Part shown: piece after piece, positions 4,974 to 43,042 of the stretch
How positions within the stretch are numbered: the stretch's first letter is position 1
How the letters are laid out: every line of letters starts with the position of its first letter
The notes under the pieces: model-generated
What the model was told of the DNA's origin: nothing
Database searches by the model: none
The model's input: the letters and a program-made list of their open reading frames with translations, nothing else
Program-made: the position numbers and the translations under genes
Assembly: GCA_019347675.1 (NCBI GenBank)
Contig: JAHWKW010000003.1
Span: 1 to 64,000 of the forward strand
Reading direction: 5' to 3'
DNA length: 64,000 nucleotides
From: Actinomycetota bacterium
Lineage (GTDB): Bacteria > Actinomycetota > Nitriliruptoria > Nitriliruptorales > JAHWKO01

Positions 4974-5243
4974 ATGAGCAGATGGTGGAGCCCACGCAGC
5001 AACGGCCGCCCGGCGGATTGCCGGCAGGTCGCACGCGTCGTCCAGCAACACCTCGACGGGGAGTTGGACGAGCAGGCAGCGCGCGCCGTCGCGCAGCACC
5101 TCGAGGTGTGCCTGCACTGCGGGTTGGACGCCTCGACGTATCGGGAGCTGAAGCGACACCTGTCCCGGCTGCAGCACCCCGTCGATGACGCCGTCGTGAA
5201 ACGCCTACGCCGCTTCGTGGATCAGCTCAGCGTTGAGAAGTGA
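4974..5243 (+). CDS. Zinc-finger anti-sigma-factor-like protein
   Basis: The 89-residue product contains DCRQVARVVQQHLDGELDEQ, AVAQHLEVCLHCGLDA and a basic helical tail (DDAVVKRLRRFVDQLS). A Cys, a His and a CxxC arranged around a short helix pair are the signature of zf-HC2 anti-sigma domains, which bind ECF sigma factors and release them on redox or envelope stress. No sigma gene is adjacent, so the partner is unknown. A strong ribosome site (GGGAGGA at 4934) precedes ATGs at 4940/4943 in another frame. The true start may lie there, with a frameshift before the zinc finger, or at ATG 4974. Confidence 0.65.
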   Translation: MSRWWSPRSNGRPADCRQVARVVQQHLDGELDEQAARAVAQHLEVCLHCGLDASTYRELKRHLSRLQHPVDDAVVKRLRRFVDQLSVEK

Positions 5244-14974: not shown

Positions 14975-15451
14975 TCAGACGTTCATGCCCATCGCCTGCA
15001 GCTCGAGGCGCACCTCGTCGGAGATCATTTCCGGGCTCCACGGCGGAGTGAACGTGAAGTCGACGGTGACGTCCTCGACGCCCGGCAACGACCCCAGCAC
15101 GACCGAGACCTGCTGGTCGATCAGCTCGGTGAGCGGGCAGCCCATGCTGGTCAGCGTCATGGTGACGTGCACCCGACCGTCCGATGCCTTGGTGATCTCG
15201 TACAGCAGCCCGAGGTCGACCACGTTGTACCCGATCTCGGGGTCCATCACGGCCTTCATCGCCTCGCGCATGACCTCGACCGATGGCATGCCGTCGTCCT
15301 CGAGCGGGAACCCGGCCGGTCGGGGTGCCCGTTCGGCCGCTTTCTCGGCCTCCTGCTCGGCCTGTCGCTCGACGTCCGATCCCGGCCCGGCGCCGGGCGT
15401 TGGCGGCTCGTGGAGCGTCGTCTCCTCGGGCGGTAGCGCAGCGTCGCTCAT
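14975..15451 (-). CDS. sufT: SufT, DUF59/MIP18-type Fe-S assembly factor
   Basis: SufT-type proteins help place Fe-S clusters into target enzymes. The first 50 residues are a low-complexity acidic Pro/Glu extension; the DUF59 domain follows with VMREAMKAVMDPEIGYNVVD, LGLLYEI and the conserved Cys in TMTLTSMGCPLTELIDQQV. The C-terminal FTPPWSPEMISDEVR is also diagnostic. The ATG overlaps the sufU stop (ATGA), so it is the last gene of the translationally coupled suf set. Confidence 0.93.
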   Translation of the reverse strand: MSDAALPPEETTLHEPPTPGAGPGSDVERQAEQEAEKAAERAPRPAGFPLEDDGMPSVEVMREAMKAVMDPEIGYNVVDLGLLYEITKASDGRVHVTMTLTSMGCPLTELIDQQVSVVLGSLPGVEDVTVDFTFTPPWSPEMISDEVRLELQAMGMNV

Positions 15452-15924
15452 GTCTCCACCTCGTGCTCATGGGTCACCGTGTGTTGCGATCCGCCAGCGC
15501 GGTAGGTCTCCAACGCGTCGCGGAGCGCCATCCAGCCCAGCAGAGCGCACTTCACCCGCACCGGGAACTTCGCGACCCCCTGGAAGACGATCCCGTCGCC
15601 GAGGTCGTCCTCGCGGGCGGGCCGCTCGCCGTGCATCATCAGCCGGAACTGCTCGGCGAGGTCGAGCGCGTCGTCGAGCTCTCGACCCTTCACGGTCTCG
15701 GTCATGACGCTGGCCGACGCCTGGCTGATCGAGCAGCCATCCCCGTCGAACGCCAACGCGCGGACGCGGCCGTCCTCGACGTCGACGCGGAGGTCGAGTT
15801 CGTCGCCGCACAGGGGGTTGCTGTGGTGGACGTGCACGTCCTCACCCTCGAGCGCCGCGGCCCGGTTCTTCGGGCTGCGGTAGTGCTCGAGGATGATCTC
15901 CTGGTACAGGTCCTCGAGGGTCAC
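15448..15924 (-). CDS. sufU: SufU, zinc-dependent sulfur-transfer partner of SufS
   Basis: SufU accepts persulfide sulfur from SufS and passes it to the SufBCD scaffold. The 158 residues hold the three ligand cysteines in NPLCGDELDLRV, FDGDGCSISQASASV and FPVRVKCALLGW, plus the SufU-specific insertion between the second and third that separates it from IscU. The N-terminus LYQEIILEHYRSPKN is typical. It lies 23 bases downstream of the sufS stop and overlaps sufT by four bases. Confidence 0.95.
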   Translation of the reverse strand: MTLEDLYQEIILEHYRSPKNRAAALEGEDVHVHHSNPLCGDELDLRVDVEDGRVRALAFDGDGCSISQASASVMTETVKGRELDDALDLAEQFRLMMHGERPAREDDLGDGIVFQGVAKFPVRVKCALLGWMALRDALETYRAGGSQHTVTHEHEVET

Positions 15925-15947
15925 GCGGGTCTCCTAGCGCGAGAGGA

Positions 15948-17264
15948 TCAGGCCGGGCCGCCGATCGTCTCGGGGTCGCGTTCCTCGGTCACCGGCGCCA
16001 CCGCGTCCGGGACCCGGCGGAAGAAGTCCTTGGCGGCCTCGATGCCGCGGACCAGCGGTGCGATGTCGTCCTCGTCGTTGTAGACGTAGAAGCTCGCTCG
16101 TGCGGTGGCTGCCACCCCCAGGTGGCGCATCAGCGGCTTGGCGCAGTGGTGGCCGACCCGCACGCACACCCCCTCATGGTCCAGGACCGTCCCCACGTCG
16201 TGGGCGTGGACGCCGTCGACCAGGAACGAGATCGACCCGCCGCGGTGGTCAACGTTGGCCGGGCCGTGGACGGTGACCCCGTCGACCTGCTGGAGCGCGG
16301 CCAGTGCCGTGCGGGTCAGCTCGACCTCGTGGCGGCGGATCTCCTCGGGATCGAGGTCCAGCAGGTAGTCGACCGCGGCGCCCAGGCCGATGACCTCGGC
16401 GATCGGCATGGTCCCGGCCTCGAACTTGTAGGGCAGGTCGTTCCAGGTGGCGCCCTCCAGCGTGACGTCGCGGATCATCTCGCCGCCGGTGAGGAACGGC
16501 GGCATCGCGTCCAGCAGCTCCGGGCGCGCGATCAGGACACCGACCCCGGTCGGGCCCAGCATCTTGTGCCCGCTGAAGGCCAGGAAGTCCGCCCCGAGTT
16601 CACCGAAGCGCACCGGCAGGTGCGGCACGGATTGGGCGCCGTCCACCAGCACCTTGCATGCCGGATTCGCGGCTCGTGCCTGCCTGGCCAGTGCCGCGAC
16701 CGGGTTGATGGTGGCCAGCACGTTGCTCTGCTGGGTGATCGCCAGGAACGAGACCTTGCCGTCAGCCAGCAGGCCCGGGACGGCGTCCAGGTCCAGGTAG
16801 CCGGCGGCGGTCACCGGGATGAAGCGCAGCTCGAAGCCGACCTCCCGGGACGCCTCCAACCACGGCACCAGGTTGGCGTGATGCTCCATCTGGGTGGCCA
16901 GCAACGCGTCGCCGGGACCCAGCCGGCGCCGCACCCACGAGTAGGCCACCAGGTTGATCGACTCGGTGGTGTTGCGGGTGAAGACGGTCCCCTCGACCGG
17001 GGCGTCGACGAACGCGGCGACCTTCCGCCGGGCGTCCTCGTACGCGTCGGTGGCCTCGGTCGCGATCTGGTACACGCCGCGGGCCACGTTGGCGCGTCGC
17101 TGCTCGTAGTAGGCCGCCATCGCGTCGAGCACGGGCTGGGGGCTCTGGGCGCTGGCGGCGGAGTCGAGGTACACCAGCCGCTTGCCGTGCACCTGGCGGC
17201 GCAACGTCGGGAAGTCCTTCTTGATCCGGTCGACGTCGAAGCGGCCCATCAGCGTCCTTACCAT
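15948..17264 (-). CDS. sufS: SufS cysteine desulfurase
   Basis: SufS is a pyridoxal-phosphate enzyme that takes sulfur from cysteine as a persulfide. The PLP lysine is in LAFSGHKMLGPTGVG, the persulfide Cys in RVGHHCAKPLM, and the N-terminal YLDSAASAQSPQPVLDAM is typical of class II desulfurases. ATG 17264 is chosen because GGAGG lies five bases upstream; ATGs at 17249 and 17276 are alternatives. The product is about 438 residues with a short C-terminal extension (VPDAVAPVTEERDPETIGG) past the usual end. It sits between sufC and sufU. Confidence 0.95.
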   Translation of the reverse strand: MVRTLMGRFDVDRIKKDFPTLRRQVHGKRLVYLDSAASAQSPQPVLDAMAAYYEQRRANVARGVYQIATEATDAYEDARRKVAAFVDAPVEGTVFTRNTTESINLVAYSWVRRRLGPGDALLATQMEHHANLVPWLEASREVGFELRFIPVTAAGYLDLDAVPGLLADGKVSFLAITQQSNVLATINPVAALARQARAANPACKVLVDGAQSVPHLPVRFGELGADFLAFSGHKMLGPTGVGVLIARPELLDAMPPFLTGGEMIRDVTLEGATWNDLPYKFEAGTMPIAEVIGLGAAVDYLLDLDPEEIRRHEVELTRTALAALQQVDGVTVHGPANVDHRGGSISFLVDGVHAHDVGTVLDHEGVCVRVGHHCAKPLMRHLGVAATARASFYVYNDEDDIAPLVRGIEAAKDFFRRVPDAVAPVTEERDPETIGGPA

Positions 17265-17352
17265 CGTTGCCTCCATCGTGCCGCGGACCCCGCGCCCCGC
17301 CCACTCCCGGGCGGGGAAACCCTCCCGACGCGCGGTGTCGGCATGCCCGGCC

Positions 17353-18105
17353 TCACGCCGCGGGGGTCGCCGCCTCGCGGAACTCCTCGTAGCCCTTCTC
17401 CTCGAGCAGGTCGGCGAGCTCCGGGCCACCGGAGCGCACGATCCGCCCATCGAACATCACGTGCACCTCGTCGGCGTGGATGTAGCGCAGGATCCGGGTG
17501 TAGTGGGTGATCAGCAGCACCCCGAGGTCGGGGCCGACCATGCGTTTGACCCCCTCGGCGACGGTCTTCAGCGCGTCGATGTCGAGGCCGGAGTCGGTCT
17601 CGTCGAGGATCGCGACCGCGGGACGGATCAGCGCCATCTGCACGATCTCGAAGCGCTTCTTCTCGCCACCGGAGAAGCCCTCGTTCACGGATCGCTCGAG
17701 GAAGCGCTCGTCCATGTCGAGGTTGGCCATCTCCGTCTTCAGTCGCTGCATGAACTCGCGGACGGGGACGTCCTCGTCGCTCACGGCGTTCAGCGCCATG
17801 CGCAGGAAGTTGGTCAGCGACACGCCGGGGACCTCCACCGGGTACTGCATCGCCAGGAACAGCCCCGCCTGGGCCCGCTCGTCGGGGTTCATGGCCAGCA
17901 CATCGCGCCCGTCGAGGGTCACCGACCCGCCGGTCACCGCGTAGGCAGGGTGGCCGGCGATCGCGTACGCCAGAGTGGATTTCCCGGATCCGTTGGGACC
18001 CATCAGGGCGTAGGTGCGACCCTGCTCGATGTCGAGGGTCACGCCTTTGAGGATCTCCTTGCCGTCGACCTCGACGGTGAGGTCGCGGATCTCGAGGAAT
18101 GCCAT
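17353..18105 (-). CDS. sufC: SufC ATPase of the SufBCD scaffold
   Basis: The 250-residue ABC ATPase has a Walker A (LMGPNGSGKSTLAYAIAGHP), a Q-loop (LFLAMQYPVEVPGVSL), the signature NEGFSGGEKKRFEIVQMALI and Walker B plus D-loop in AILDETDSGLDIDALK. The Suf-specific signature with SGGEKKR separates it from transport ATPases. ATP binding by SufC reshapes SufB-SufD for cluster building. The ATG at 18105 gives the standard length. About 75 untranslated bases separate it from the Rieske gene and about 88 from sufS, the widest gaps in this operon. Confidence 0.96.
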   Translation of the reverse strand: MAFLEIRDLTVEVDGKEILKGVTLDIEQGRTYALMGPNGSGKSTLAYAIAGHPAYAVTGGSVTLDGRDVLAMNPDERAQAGLFLAMQYPVEVPGVSLTNFLRMALNAVSDEDVPVREFMQRLKTEMANLDMDERFLERSVNEGFSGGEKKRFEIVQMALIRPAVAILDETDSGLDIDALKTVAEGVKRMVGPDLGVLLITHYTRILRYIHADEVHVMFDGRIVRSGGPELADLLEEKGYEEFREAATPAA

Positions 18106-18179
18106 CTTTTGTCGTCTCCTTGAAGTCTGTTGAGGGTCTCCGGTGTGGTGACCGGCCGAACCGTGCCGGCCGCTGGTCT

Positions 18180-18524
18180 CTAGTGGTCGGGGATCGGTGC
18201 GTCGTTCAGCTGCTGGTCGATGTCGACCAGGACGTCGTCGCCGTCGACCTTCGCCGCGAAGATCGGGATGGGTTCGGTCGCGGGGAGGGTCTCGGCCTCG
18301 CCGGTCTCCAGGTCGAACGTCGAGCCGTGCAGGGCGCACTCGATCGAGCAGCCCCACACCAGCCCCTCGTGCAGGGGATAGTCCTGGTGCGAGCACACGT
18401 CGTAGGCGGCCCGCACCGAACCGTCGTCGCAGGCAACCACGCAGATCGGGTGACCGTCGAGCTTGACCTGCAGCCCCGTCCCGGGGATGAGGTCGTCACG
18501 GGTGGCGACCTTCTCGAACACCAC
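18180..18524 (-). CDS. Rieske-type [2Fe-2S] ferredoxin inside the suf operon
   Basis: The 114-residue soluble protein carries the Rieske pair of motifs: DVCSHQDYPLHEG (C-x-H) and IECALHGSTFDLETG (C-x2-H), so a [2Fe-2S] cluster with two Cys and two His is expected. It resembles the small subunit ferredoxins of dioxygenases and NirD. The GTG start overlaps the sufD stop by one base, so it is made with the suf proteins. It could deliver electrons for cluster assembly or repair; that role is inference from position only. Confidence 0.92.
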   Translation of the reverse strand: MVFEKVATRDDLIPGTGLQVKLDGHPICVVACDDGSVRAAYDVCSHQDYPLHEGLVWGCSIECALHGSTFDLETGEAETLPATEPIPIFAAKVDGDDVLVDIDQQLNDAPIPDH

Positions 18525-19912
18525 TACGCCGCACCTCGCTCGTTGGCTGCCACGCCGCGGCCTCGGCCGCGGCGGGCGATCGCCGTCAGGTCGGCGCGGT
18601 CGACCTCGGCCTCGATGTGCTGCAGCGTCCGTGCCTGCACCGCCGGCAGCGCGATGCGATCGAGCACCTCGGCGAAGAAGCCGAACACCACCAGGCGCAG
18701 AGCGTCGGCGGCGCTGATCCCCCGCGACTCGAGGTAGAACAGCTGCTCCTCATCGATCTGGCCGGTGGCCGAACCGTGCCCGGCCGTGACCTCCGCGCAC
18801 TCGATCTCCAGGAACGGGGTGGAATCGGCCTTGGCGCCTTCGGACAGGATCAGGCTCTTGTTCACCTCGTTGGACGCGCTCCCGATCGCGTCACGGTGGA
18901 CGAAGATGTGTCCGCGGAACACGGTGCGGCTGCGGCCCTGCAGCGCCCCCTTGTACAGCACCTCCGAGGAGGCGTGGCCGGCGACGTGCGCGATGAACGG
19001 ATGGTGCTCGAAGTGCTGTCCTTCGTCGGAGAAGTAGATCCCGAGCGGCTCGATCCGCGACCCCGCGCCGACCAGGTGGACCTCGGGGCGCAGACGGACG
19101 GTGTCCCCACCGATGGTGACGGTGAGGTGGCGGAGCTGGGCGTCACGGTGGAGCGCCGCGGCGTGCACGACCAGATGGCCGACCCGTCCCTGCCAGTCCT
19201 GGATCGTCACCAGATCCAGGTGGGCACCGTCACCGACGACCACCTCCGCGACCTCGTCGACCGTTGTTGGGGTGTCCAGATCAGCTGATACGTGCTCGAC
19301 GTACAGCTCGGCTCGGCTGTGGCGATCGGCGATGACCAGCAGGCGCGGCAGGTGCGCGCCGGACTGCGCCGCCTGGATCGAGATACCGATCGGTTCGGCG
19401 AGCTCCACCTCCGGCGGGATGTACACGAACACGCCAGCCGTCCACGCGGCGTCGTTGGTCGTCACCGTGCGGTCGTGGTCGGCGGTCAGCGAGCCGAGGT
19501 GCTGACCGACCAGGTCCTCGTGTGTGGTCGCGGCGGTGGCGAGGTCGGTGATGACCACGCCGAGCGCCTCGGCGTCGGAACAACCCATGACCGTCACCCG
19601 GCCATCGCGGAGCTCGACACGTCCGGCCAGGTCAACGTCGTCCAGGAGCGGCGACGGGACCGGCGCGGCCAGCTCCCCGTCGCCTGTGACGATCGGGACG
19701 TCGACGGCGAAGCGGGTGAACGGCGTGTCGCGCCACAGCTCCTCGCCGCGGAGCTGCGGCCATCGCTGGTCGACCCATGTCTTGAACGCCTCCAGGCGGC
19801 GGTCGCGGAGCCATCCGGGCTCGCCGGCCGCGTCGGCGCGACCAGCGAGGAACTCCTCGGTGAGGGCCTCGAGCGTGGTCCCCACTCGAGCGCCCGAGGT
19901 CGCGGAGGTCAT
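18524..19912 (-). CDS. sufD: SufD scaffold protein
   Basis: SufD pairs with SufB and SufC in the Fe-S scaffold. The 462-residue protein shows the SufB/D beta-helix with [49 protein letters not shown], and the C-terminal helix-rich end [20 protein letters not shown]. SufD is more divergent than SufB, as usual. The C-terminus adds about 20 Arg/Gly-rich residues ([15 protein letters not shown]). It overlaps sufB by four bases at the start and the Rieske gene by one base at the end. Confidence 0.95.
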
Positions 19913-21357
19913 CCGATCGCGCCCTCCATCTCCAGGGCGATCAACCGGTTGAGCTCGACCGCGTACTCCATCGGCAGCTCCGAGGCGATGTCGGACACGA
20001 ACCCGCGGACGATCATCGTCTTGGCTTCGTCCTCGGAGACGCCCCGGCTCATCAGGTAGAACAGCTGGTCGTCACCGATCTTGGACACGGTCGCCTCGTG
20101 CTCGATGCGGGCGTCGTCGGCCTCGATCTCCATGTACGGGTAGGTGTCGCTCCGCGAGTGGGTGTCCAGCAGCAGCGCGTCGCACTGCACGTTGGACCCG
20201 CAGCGCTTGGCCTGCGGTTCGATGTGGACCAGCCCGCGGTAGGACGTGCGCCCCTGACCCTTCGAGATGGACTTGGAGATGATCCGCGACGACGTGTCGG
20301 ACGCGTGGTGGACCATCTTCGCACCGGCGTCCTGGTGCTGACCGTCCGCGGCGTACGCCACCGACAGGACCTCACCCTGCGCGCCGCGGCCCATCAGCCA
20401 CACCGCCGGGTACTTCATGGTCAGCTTCGAGCCGATGTTCGCGTCGATCCACTCCATGCGGGCGTCCTCGTAGGCAGCGGCTCGCTTGGTCACGAGGTTG
20501 TAGACGTTGTTCGACCAGTTCTGGATCGTGGTGTACCGCACCTGCGCGCCGGGCTTGACGATGATCTCGACCACCGCCGAGTGCAGCGAGTCACGCGAGT
20601 ACACCGGAGCCGTGCAGCCCTCGACGTAGTGCACGTACGAGCCTGGCTCGGCGATGATCAGCGTCCGCTCGAACTGGCCCATGGACTCCTTGTTGATGCG
20701 GAAGTAGGCCTGCAGCGGGATGTCGACCTTGACGCCCTCGGGGATCCAGATGAACGACCCGCCCGACCACACCGCGGTGTTCAGCGCGGCGAACTTGTTG
20801 TCGTTGGGCGGGATCACCGTCGCGTAGTGCTCCTTGAAGAGATCCTCGTGCTGCTTCAAGGCGGTGTCGGTGTCGAGGAAGAGCACGCCCTGGCTCTCGA
20901 GGTCCTCGCGGACCTTGTGGTAGACGACCTCGCTCTCGTACTGGGCGGCCACGCCAGCGATCAGCCGCTGCTTCTCTGCCTCGGGGATGCCGAGCTTGTC
21001 GTAGGTGTTCTTGATGTCCTCGGGGAGCTCGTCCCACGACGTGGCCTGCTTCTCCGTCGCACGGACGAAGTAGTAGATGTCGTCGAAGTGGATCCCGGAC
21101 AGGTCACCGCCCCACGACGGCATGGGCCGTCGGGTGAACGCCTGGTAAGCGCGCATCCGCAGGTCGCGCATCCACTTGGGCTCGTCCTTGAGGAACGAGA
21201 TCTCCTCGACGACCTCGGCGGACAGCCCGCGCTTGGGCTCGAACACGTAGTTGTCTGGATCGTGCCAGCCGAACTTGTAACGGCTGAGCTCGTCGGCGAC
21301 CTGCTGCTGCTGTGTGCGGGGCGCGGTCAGCCCGATCTCTGCGGCGGTCTTCGCCAC
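19909..21357 (-). CDS. sufB: SufB scaffold protein
   Basis: SufB is the core Fe-S scaffold. The 482-residue sequence is highly conserved: [58 protein letters not shown] with the family-conserved Cys, and [19 protein letters not shown]; the C-terminal part contains [18 protein letters not shown] 21357 has a GAGGAGGA ribosome site. It is the first structural gene after the regulator sufR, 69 bases from its stop. No intein is present, unlike SufB of some mycobacteria. Confidence 0.97.
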
Positions 21358-21426: not shown

Positions 21427-22119
21427 TCAGCAGCCGCAGTTGGCCGTGATGGTGCAGACGCAGGCGTTGGCGCCGCTCGCCAGCGTCTCGCGGCGCGAGA
21501 TCCGCACATCGCCCAGGACGCGCCGGAACGTCGCGGCCTCATGGGCGCACATTTCCGGGTTGTCCTTGGCGACGTCGAAGATGGCGCAGTGGCTCTGGGT
21601 CAGCTCGAACCCGTCTCCGTCGCTCGTGACGCTGGCCTCGTAGCCGGCTTCGTTGAGCGCGTCGACCAACTGATCGAGCCGCCCTGCCAGGTCGTCCGCG
21701 TCGACCGCGCGGGCGTACGCCTCGGTCTGGCGATCCTGCCGCCAGCGCAGGAACGCCTGCAACCCGGCCCGGCCCTGCTGGTCCGCGATGAAGGCCAGCA
21801 GGTCCTCGACCATCTCGGCGTACCGATGCGGGAAGAGCTCCTCCCCCCGCTCGGTGAGCCGGTACCGGGCGACGGGGCGGCCGCGTTCCTGGCGAACCGT
21901 CCGCTCGGTGATCATCCCCTCGCTGTGCAGCATCGCCAGATGCTTGCGAACCGCGACGTCGGAGATGCCGAGCGCGTCCGCCAGTTCGGGGGCGCTCCGC
22001 TCGCCCTCTCCCTTCAAGGTCCGCACGATGGTCGCCCGGGTCTCGCCGAGCAGTGCGGCGAGCGATCGCGACAGGGTCCGCGTCTCCGGGCCCTGCGCGT
22101 TCGTCGCCGCGCGCTCCAT
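21427..22119 (-). CDS. sufR: SufR, Fe-S-dependent repressor of the suf operon
   Basis: The 230-residue regulator has an N-terminal winged helix-turn-helix (TRATIVRTLKGEGERSAPEL, DVAVRKHLAMLHSEGMITER, RGRPVARYRLTERGEELF) and a C-terminal sensor with many Cys: QSHCAIFDVAKDNPEMCAHE and ACVCTITANCGC. SufR binds an Fe-S cluster and represses suf when clusters are plentiful. ATG 22119 gives the standard length; a TTG at 22170 in frame is less likely because it overlaps the repeat array. It begins the operon and is expected to act on the repeats just upstream. Confidence 0.93.
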   Translation of the reverse strand: MERAATNAQGPETRTLSRSLAALLGETRATIVRTLKGEGERSAPELADALGISDVAVRKHLAMLHSEGMITERTVRQERGRPVARYRLTERGEELFPHRYAEMVEDLLAFIADQQGRAGLQAFLRWRQDRQTEAYARAVDADDLAGRLDQLVDALNEAGYEASVTSDGDGFELTQSHCAIFDVAKDNPEMCAHEAATFRRVLGDVRISRRETLASGANACVCTITANCGC

Positions 22120-22163
22120 CGTGTGGTCCCCTGCCTCGAGCTTGTCGACCGCAGACTCAGTGC

Positions 22164-22221
22164 TTCTCAACGTCAGTGCTTCTCAACGTCAGTGCGCTTC
22201 TCAACGTCAGAGTTTCTCAAC
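22164..22221 (-). promoter_or_regulatory. Four direct repeats upstream of sufR, probable operator array
   Basis: The octamer TTCTCAAC (GTTGAGAA in the operon direction) occurs at 22164, 22180, 22198 and 22214, spaced 16, 18 and 16 bases. The first three copies extend to TTCTCAACGTCAG. The array lies between a possible -10 (TAATAT at 22239-22234, minus strand) and the sufR start, an ideal place for repression. The spacing of about one and a half turns suggests repeated binding of a regulator, most simply SufR itself. Confidence 0.6.
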
Positions 22222-22233
22222 TTCCTGGTTATG

Positions 22234-22239
22234 ATATTA
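22234..22239 (-). promoter_or_regulatory. Possible -10 element of the suf operon
   Basis: TAATAT on the minus strand is the best -10-like hexamer in an unusually AT-rich spot, 13 bases before the first repeat of the array. It would give a leader of about 105 bases that contains all four repeats. No convincing -35 was found. Confidence 0.35.
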
Positions 22240-22550
22240 CGCGCGGCGCACGACGCCCGCAACGGCCGCCCCGAGCGTCCGTCCCGAGCGTTCGCATGGC
22301 GCTGCTGGGGTTGCGCTCGCCGAAGACCCTGCGCCGTGGCAGGGCCATGCTCGGCCGGTCATGCGGCGCGGAAACGGCCCGCCGTCGGGTCACCCGGGGC
22401 CTGCGCCGTTCAAGGCACGGGGCTGGTCGGGCGGCTCCCTGGTCTTCCGCGCGACTCGGCGGACGTGCCGCCGCCCTAAAGCCGTCACGCAGCGTAACCG
22501 AACACTGCGGGGGGAGAACGTGGTCCCCGACCCGGCCATCGGAGGATGCC
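22240..22550 (+). other. Divergent intergenic region, no recognised gene
   Basis: Between the suf promoter area and the small gene at 22551 lie about 310 bases. Open frames on both strands lack ribosome sites or known motifs. A TAACCG hexamer near 22495 could be part of a rightward promoter for the small gene. Confidence 0.35.
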
Positions 22551-22869: not shown

Positions 22870-22875
22870 TAGAGT
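22870..22875 (+). promoter_or_regulatory. -10 element for a leaderless deacetylase transcript
   Basis: TAGAGT ends eight bases before GTG 22884, leaving no room for a ribosome site, so transcription probably begins at the start codon. The TANNNT shape and this distance recur at several other genes in the window. Confidence 0.45.
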
Positions 22876-22883
22876 TGGCCCTC

Positions 22884-23669
22884 GTGAGGGTGGATCTGCG
22901 GCGGCTGACGGCGCGGCTCGCGCCGCTCGTGCCTGACGCCGTTCTCGATCGCGTGCTCGAGTTGCGGTCGCGGCTCGGTGAGGGGCCTGTGATCGGGCTG
23001 CCGCGCTTCGACCGGGTCCTGGTGGTGGCGCCCCATCCCGACGACGAAACGCTGCTGTGCGGTGGGACGGTGTCGGCGCTGGCAGACCGGGGGGCCGACG
23101 TGCGGGTCGTCGTGGCCACCGACGGCACGGCGTCGCGGGTGCCGCTGGCCCCCGGCGAGCTGGCCCGGCGCCGCCGCGAGGAGACCCGACAGGCGTGCGC
23201 GACCCTCGGCGTCGGCGACCCGGTGTTCGTCGGCCTGCGCGACGGAGACCTCACCGCCCAGGTCGGGGCGCTGACCGATGCCGTGCAGGACCAGCTGGAG
23301 GCGTTCGCCCCGCACCTGGTCCTGGTCCCGTGGTTCGGCGACGCCCACCCTGATCACCGCGCGTGCAGTGCCGCCCTGGTGCGCACCACTCCCCTCGACG
23401 AGGTCGAGGTCTGGGGCGGCGAGGTGTGGATGCCCGCACCGATCAACCGGCTGGTGGACGTGTCGGAGACGATCGAGCGGAAGCGCGCGGCGCTGGCGGC
23501 TCATGCCACCGCGCAGCAGGCGTTCGACCTGGAGGCGATGCTGGCGCTGAACCGCTACCGCAGCGTGCACGGCCTGCGAGGCCGCGGGTTCGCCGAGGGG
23601 TACCTGGCCGCCCCGTTCCCCGACTACGCACGCTGGACGACCCACGCGCTCGAGTCCGACGCTCGATGA
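22884..23669 (+). CDS. PIG-L/LmbE-family N-acetyl-sugar deacetylase
   Basis: The family removes N-acetyl groups from sugars such as GlcNAc-inositol or glycolipids using zinc. Motif one, VVAPHPDDETLLCGG, gives the zinc ligands His and Asp plus the catalytic Asp; the third ligand region is FGDAHPDHRACSAALV. The length of 261 residues is usual. MshB of mycothiol synthesis belongs here, but so do many exopolysaccharide and antibiotic enzymes, so no exact substrate is claimed. The stop overlaps the start of a GNAT acetyltransferase (ATGA), implying that the two act on the same compound. Confidence 0.88.
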   Translation: MRVDLRRLTARLAPLVPDAVLDRVLELRSRLGEGPVIGLPRFDRVLVVAPHPDDETLLCGGTVSALADRGADVRVVVATDGTASRVPLAPGELARRRREETRQACATLGVGDPVFVGLRDGDLTAQVGALTDAVQDQLEAFAPHLVLVPWFGDAHPDHRACSAALVRTTPLDEVEVWGGEVWMPAPINRLVDVSETIERKRAALAAHATAQQAFDLEAMLALNRYRSVHGLRGRGFAEGYLAAPFPDYARWTTHALESDAR

Positions 23670-42647: not shown

Positions 42648-43042
42648 CCCTTCACGTCGGTGCCGCCGCCGAACGCGCCGGTCTCGCGGTGGGCGCCGTG
42701 CCGGTCGCCTTCGCCGTCGGCGTCGCCGCGTCCCGGCAGGCGGCCCCGCACCTCGTCCAGGGCCCTCCTGCCGCGCCGGTCGCCCTCGCCGTCGGCGTCG
42801 CCGCGTCCCGGCATGCGGGCCCACACCTCATCCAGGACCTTCCTCGCCCATCGGAACTGCGTGGCCAGGATCGCCAGGCCCGCGGGGATCGCGAGGATGG
42901 CGGGACCCGGCAGGACGATCATCGCGACGCCCGCCACCAGGACCACGGATCCGACGATGCTGACGGCGACGCGCTTGCCTTCACGCCGGACGAGCGCGCG
43001 CATCCGACCTCCCCGCCCGTCTCCCTGCTGCGCGTCGGACAC
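42644..43042 (-). CDS. PGPGW-type putative transmembrane protein
   Basis: The 132-residue protein has a basic start, two close hydrophobic segments (VAVSIVGSVVLVAGVAMIVL, PGPAILAIPAGLAILATQF) containing the PGP turn typical of the TIGR02611/PGPGW family, and the following RWARKVLDEVW. The C-terminal half is a tandem duplication of about 25 residues (VWARMPGRGDADGEGDRRG and VRGRLPGRGDADGEGDRHG). GAGGAGGG precedes GTG 43042. The function of this family is unknown. Confidence 0.8.
   Translation of the reverse strand: MSDAQQGDGRGGRMRALVRREGKRVAVSIVGSVVLVAGVAMIVLPGPAILAIPAGLAILATQFRWARKVLDEVWARMPGRGDADGEGDRRGRRALDEVRGRLPGRGDADGEGDRHGAHRETGAFGGGTDVKG
42701..42835. repeat. Tandem 75-bp duplication inside a coding region
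   Basis: The stretch from CCGGTCGCC at 42701 repeats, with a few changes, from 42776. The period of 75 bases preserves the frame and gives two copies of a 25-residue Gly/Asp/Arg-rich block in the PGPGW protein. Confidence 0.75.

Follow-up and report, generated by a model that had tools for sequence, protein, structure and literature searches.

The window analysed here, a stretch of 64,000 nucleotides (64 kb) of actinomycetotal DNA, contains a suf operon preceded by a short sequence that returns four times in the same orientation. Does this array represent a control site built from direct repeats, or does it belong to the inverted-repeat operators of SufR? The octamer GTTGAGAA occurs on the minus strand 5' of sufR at 22214-22221 (copy 1), 22198-22205 (copy 2), 22180-22187 (copy 3) and 22164-22171 (copy 4). 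The preliminary description had reported four direct copies with 16-18 base spacing, three of them in an extended form, between the likely -10 box and the sufR start. All of this held: the four matches are exact and follow each other in steps of 16, 18 and 16 bp, copies 2-4 consist of GTTGAGAAGC followed by ACTGAC/G, either directly or after GC, and the array lies between a -10 box at 22234-22239 and the ATG at 22119. The context of copy 1 reads GTTGAGAAACTCTGAC, unlike that of copies 2-4. The minus strand 5' of sufR contains the sequence CCGTTGCGGGCGTCGTGCGCCGCGCGTAATATCATAACCAGGAAGTTGAGAAACTCTGACGTTGAGAAGCGCACTGACGTTGAGAAGCACTGACGTTGAGAAGCACTGAG.

Apart from a fifth copy at 5232, no further GTTGAGAA was found in the window. 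The expectation from shuffled sequences was 0.39 copies per 64 kb, and five copies were reached by no shuffle. Tandem Repeats Finder described positions 22157-22221 as 3.9 copies of a 16-bp unit (88% matches), which makes the array the second-best tandem repeat of the window by score, after a 75-bp duplication at 42695. This top-scoring repeat (42695-42844) comprises its 75-bp unit twice with 89% matches. Because copies 2-4 have the look of duplicates, the four octamers do not count as independent evidence.

The gene following the array (21430..22119, minus strand) encodes a protein with a winged helix and a C-x12-C-x28-C-x-C motif. It is followed on the same strand by sufB (19909..21357; TIGR01980, 712 bits), sufD (18524..19912; TIGR01981, 241 bits) and, within 14975..18524, the genes for a Rieske-type ferredoxin, sufC, sufS, sufU and a sufT-like protein. 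Profile matches and the gene order sufR-sufB-sufD-ferredoxin-sufC-sufS-sufU-sufT, with sufR first, confirmed the earlier assignment of a SufR-like gene heading a suf operon. The ferredoxin gene (18180-18524, minus strand), of Rieske/NirD type, sits between sufD and sufC in the operon. Divergently upstream of sufR lies a gene for a PIG-L family deacetylase (22875-23669, plus strand; PF02585, with a weaker BshB1-like match).

The regulator is SufR-like and not the cyanobacterial equivalog as curated in TIGR02702: its match to this profile reached 112.8 bits, below the cut-off of 178.8. Its N-terminal winged helix matched PF01022 (HTH_5) and PF12840 (HTH_20) above their cut-offs, and the C-terminal cysteine motif is aligned and conserved in 25 homologues. 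Compared with the Fe-S cluster cysteines 203/216/244 of Rv1460 (PMC6034842), the spacing in the SufR-like protein of the window is one residue longer. A PDB search gave only weak ArsR-type matches.

Reading the promoter from the sequence, we predicted a -35 box TTGCGG (22257..22262) and a -10 box TAATAT (22234..22239), both on the minus strand and 17 bp apart, from which we infer a transcription start site (TSS) at about 22227. A generic sigma-70 promoter scan did not call TTGCGG-17-TAATAT. The same promoter also precedes sufR in one relative (L021). The primary SufR operator is predicted at 22212..22237 (minus strand) as ATATCATAAC-CAGGAA-GTTGAGAAAC. It scored 24.9 bits with an 80-site matrix and 23.3 bits with a matrix from 24 relatives of the order, the window being excluded from both. 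Its core, TAAC-CAGGAA-GTTG at 22231-22218, has one mismatch to the published CAAC-N6-GTTG and begins 2 bases past the predicted -10 box, within the range conserved in relatives. The TAAC-N6 directly before copy 1 had been overlooked in the preliminary description. Copy 1 thus has a left arm, TATCATAAC, which overlaps the -10 box. This left arm is imperfect, with TAAC instead of CAAC, and its departures from the consensus lie beside and inside the overlap with the predicted -10 box.

For comparison, we analysed the DNA upstream of SufR homologues at 88 loci from the same order, class and phylum. The motif matrix started from order relatives and was refined with the window left out, on an assumed GC-rich background. 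Its consensus is TT-N4-AAC-N6-GTT-N4-AA, with sites in 80 promoters from all three levels, and its core corresponds to the published SufR site CAAC-N6-GTTG. Within the order, the operator is conserved in 26 sufR promoters, where the left arm often reads TTTCTCAAC and the right arm GTTGAGAAA, with N6 between them. A TANNNT box precedes the operator core by 0-7 bases, mostly by 2-5, in 25 of these 26 relatives. Exactly the octamer GTTGAGAA makes up the right arm in 8 of the 26, and one of the 26 has TTCTCAAC as its left arm; outside operator arms, neither was found in 9,833 bp of the order relatives' promoters. Among further actinomycete-type promoters, 105 of 107 contained the dyad operator, and none of the 107 a second (tandem) dyad.

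In several deeper class-level relatives (loci such as L033, L036, L037 and L048-L062), the right half of the operator drifts (e.g. GGTAGAACTAAT) and the left arm TTTCTCAAC is kept, which suggests asymmetric or altered SufR half-sites at these loci. With 2 mismatches allowed, a genome-wide scan for CAAC-N6-GTTGAGAA gave 168 matches against 45 with the reversed control and was not specific enough to delimit a regulon.

The octamer very probably serves as a recognition element for SufR. With high probability, copy 1 represents the right arm of an ordinary, predicted inverted-repeat SufR operator, and copies 2-4 were derived from it. The preliminary description had suggested that the direct repeats would be a mode of control other than the inverted repeats of SufR. 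However, copy 1 completes TAAC-N6-GTTG and the octamer is an operator arm in relatives, so that the contrast between direct and inverted repeats disappears. To judge by its sequence, the control site is a SufR operator of the known kind to which tandem arms have been added, and does not represent control by direct repeats. The conservation in relatives that had been proposed as a check came out divided: the octamer itself is conserved, as a right arm, but the four-copy array was present in none of the 65 other genomes of the class.

What, then, are copies 2-4? They carry G after GTTGAGAA, where relatives have A in 97% and copy 1 keeps A. Their right-arm scores are low (9.2 each versus 16.6 for copy 1) because G replaces this nearly invariant A. 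Since the arms are near-symmetric (TTN4AA) and the arms of a dyad are 16 bp apart, arms that follow each other at 16-bp steps make up a series of overlapping dyads. One such second dyad, GTTGAGAAAC-TCTGAC-GTTGAGAAGC (22196..22221, minus strand), is made by copies 1 and 2; it scored 11.4 bits with the order matrix, lies exactly 16 bp downstream of the primary dyad and shares copy 1 with the latter. Copy 3, after the 18-bp step, is out of register and has no left arm (full dyad -7.0); copy 4, taken with copy 3, reaches 8.1 as a full dyad. Copies 3 and 4 are poor dyads.

Of 66 promoters in which the operator was clear, only 3 had a second site above 5 bits, and each time the best one stood at exactly 16 bp (L008, 17.4 bits; L024, 14.2 bits; the window, 11.4 bits). 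Shuffle nulls gave maxima of 10.3 (1,320 cases) and 11.3 (1,630 cases). The second dyad of the window is at the edge of chance, and those of L008 and L024 are beyond chance. L008 (genome G014) and L024 (genome G001) belong to different genera of the order, the window to a third; the congeners of L024 (L025-L027) have a single dyad. The dyad units are identical at 11/16 positions in L008 and at 12/16 in L024; AAC/AAT and GTT are kept, and it is mostly spacer and outer bases that differ. These two dyad pairs apparently arose from independent 16-bp duplications of the operator, and tandem duplication of SufR operator units by 16 bp seems to recur in the order.

We propose that the array is an autoregulatory SufR operator of the suf operon whose right arm has been copied in tandem on the downstream side. 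As in the studied relatives, a SufR dimer loaded with an Fe-S cluster would bind TATCATAAC-CAGGAA-GTTGAGAAA (22237-22212), cover the -10 box and the start site, and block transcription. When clusters become scarce, cluster-free SufR would release the operator and sufRBDCSUT would be made. Copies 2-4 (about +23 to +64) would stem from a 16-bp tandem duplication. They may allow additional, weaker contacts, above all through an overlapping second site for a dimer on copies 1 and 2, with copies 3 and 4 as half-sites at best. The parts of this proposal differ in strength. The identity of copy 1 as an operator arm, its position after the -10 box and the 16-bp step of second dyads emerge from the comparison of sequences with relatives. 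Repression and cluster sensing by the predicted SufR are what we infer from known SufR biology. Occupancy of copies 2-4 by SufR is speculative, and we give accessory SufR contacts by these copies somewhat less than an even chance.

It is nearly an even bet that copy 1 functions as an operator arm and that replication slippage on a 16-bp unit produced copies 2-4 as neutral duplicates in the untranslated leader, with no regulatory effect. This explanation competes only with the accessory part of our proposal. Copies 3 and 4 are identical at 15/16 positions, as expected of recent slippage, and the A conserved in relatives is found only in copy 1. The absence of the four-copy array from the 65 other class genomes points the same way; the source genome is the sole representative of its family among the genomes compared, and a related-locus search of genome contigs found no relative. 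Paired octamers 6-12 bp apart were found neither elsewhere in the same genome nor in the 65 others. Among 84,980 genomes, 109 stretches carry three-copy octamer arrays. By tblastn, none of these 109 contained sufR, sufB or sufD, and the actinobacterial examples that we inspected were ordinary satellites, which also speaks for neutral duplication. On the other hand, GTTGAGAA is unmutated in all four copies, and two other genera have second dyads at the 16-bp step in which AAC/AAT and GTT persist, which suggests some retention of tandem sites.

That SufR or another regulator reads the direct repeats as such, distinct from the inverted repeat, is very improbable. The identical octamers in regular 16/18/16 spacing would fit such a reading, but equal spacing already follows from a dyad with TTN4AA arms 16 bp apart. 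Moreover, the octamer is an arm of a conserved inverted repeat whose left arm is present before copy 1, and the actinomycete-type promoters carry the dyad almost without exception and never the tandem. Least probable of all is an RNA element in the sufR leader, be it a regulatory structure or protein-binding mRNA repeats: copies 1-4 (+7 to +64) lie downstream of the predicted TSS and so would be transcribed, but the array is not conserved in relatives. Folding of the leader was poorer than that of each of 200 shuffled sequences (z +2.3), and no Rfam family was matched at gathering score; both results favour a role at the DNA level.

The proposed lengthened operator resembles known systems in different respects. 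According to PMC11995493, the SufR site CAAC-N6-GTTG of Streptomyces avermitilis overlaps the -10 box and ends at the TSS, and an operator of this type is proposed also for Corynebacterium glutamicum. The site in the window is likewise an inverted repeat at the -10 box and TSS of a sufR-led suf operon, autoregulated in S. avermitilis and, by our prediction, here. In contrast to the one dyad without extra arms of the S. avermitilis operator, the window has TAAC in its left arm and four successive right arms. The sites of cyanobacterial SufR (Synechocystis) share the CAAC-N6-GTTG palindrome (PMC8593673); there it is bound by [4Fe-4S] SufR, with high- and low-affinity sites in one region (PMC8593673, PMC6034842). 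However, the two cyanobacterial sites serve divergent genes, whereas the arms in the window overlap at 16-bp steps in one leader. Both repeated hexamers and a pair of overlapping 7-1-7 dyads have been used to describe the Fur box, which accommodates a single dimer, two dimers or an extended array (PMC11353095). Like the site in the window, this inverted repeat of an iron regulator also admits a reading as head-to-tail repeats (PMC11353095), but Fur belongs to an unrelated protein family and the analogy covers only overlapping dyads that look like direct repeats. By its sequence, the predicted operator of the window belongs to the actinomycete and cyanobacterial SufR operators; it would work like them and differs from them in arm number.

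The SufR operator matrix, with its site directly after the -10 box, holds from the order to many genomes of the phylum and is usable to find suf control sites. A broader idea, which we consider possible but rather unlikely, is that SufR in this order occupies extended operators with arms at 16-bp steps, where at least two dimers would share arms on overlapping dyads and the number of arms would tune repression strength and the steepness of the Fe-S response, much like Fur boxes. Should SufR bind the extra arms, natural promoters that differ in arm number (one, two and more) would allow a test of cooperative [4Fe-4S] repressor binding on overlapping sites.
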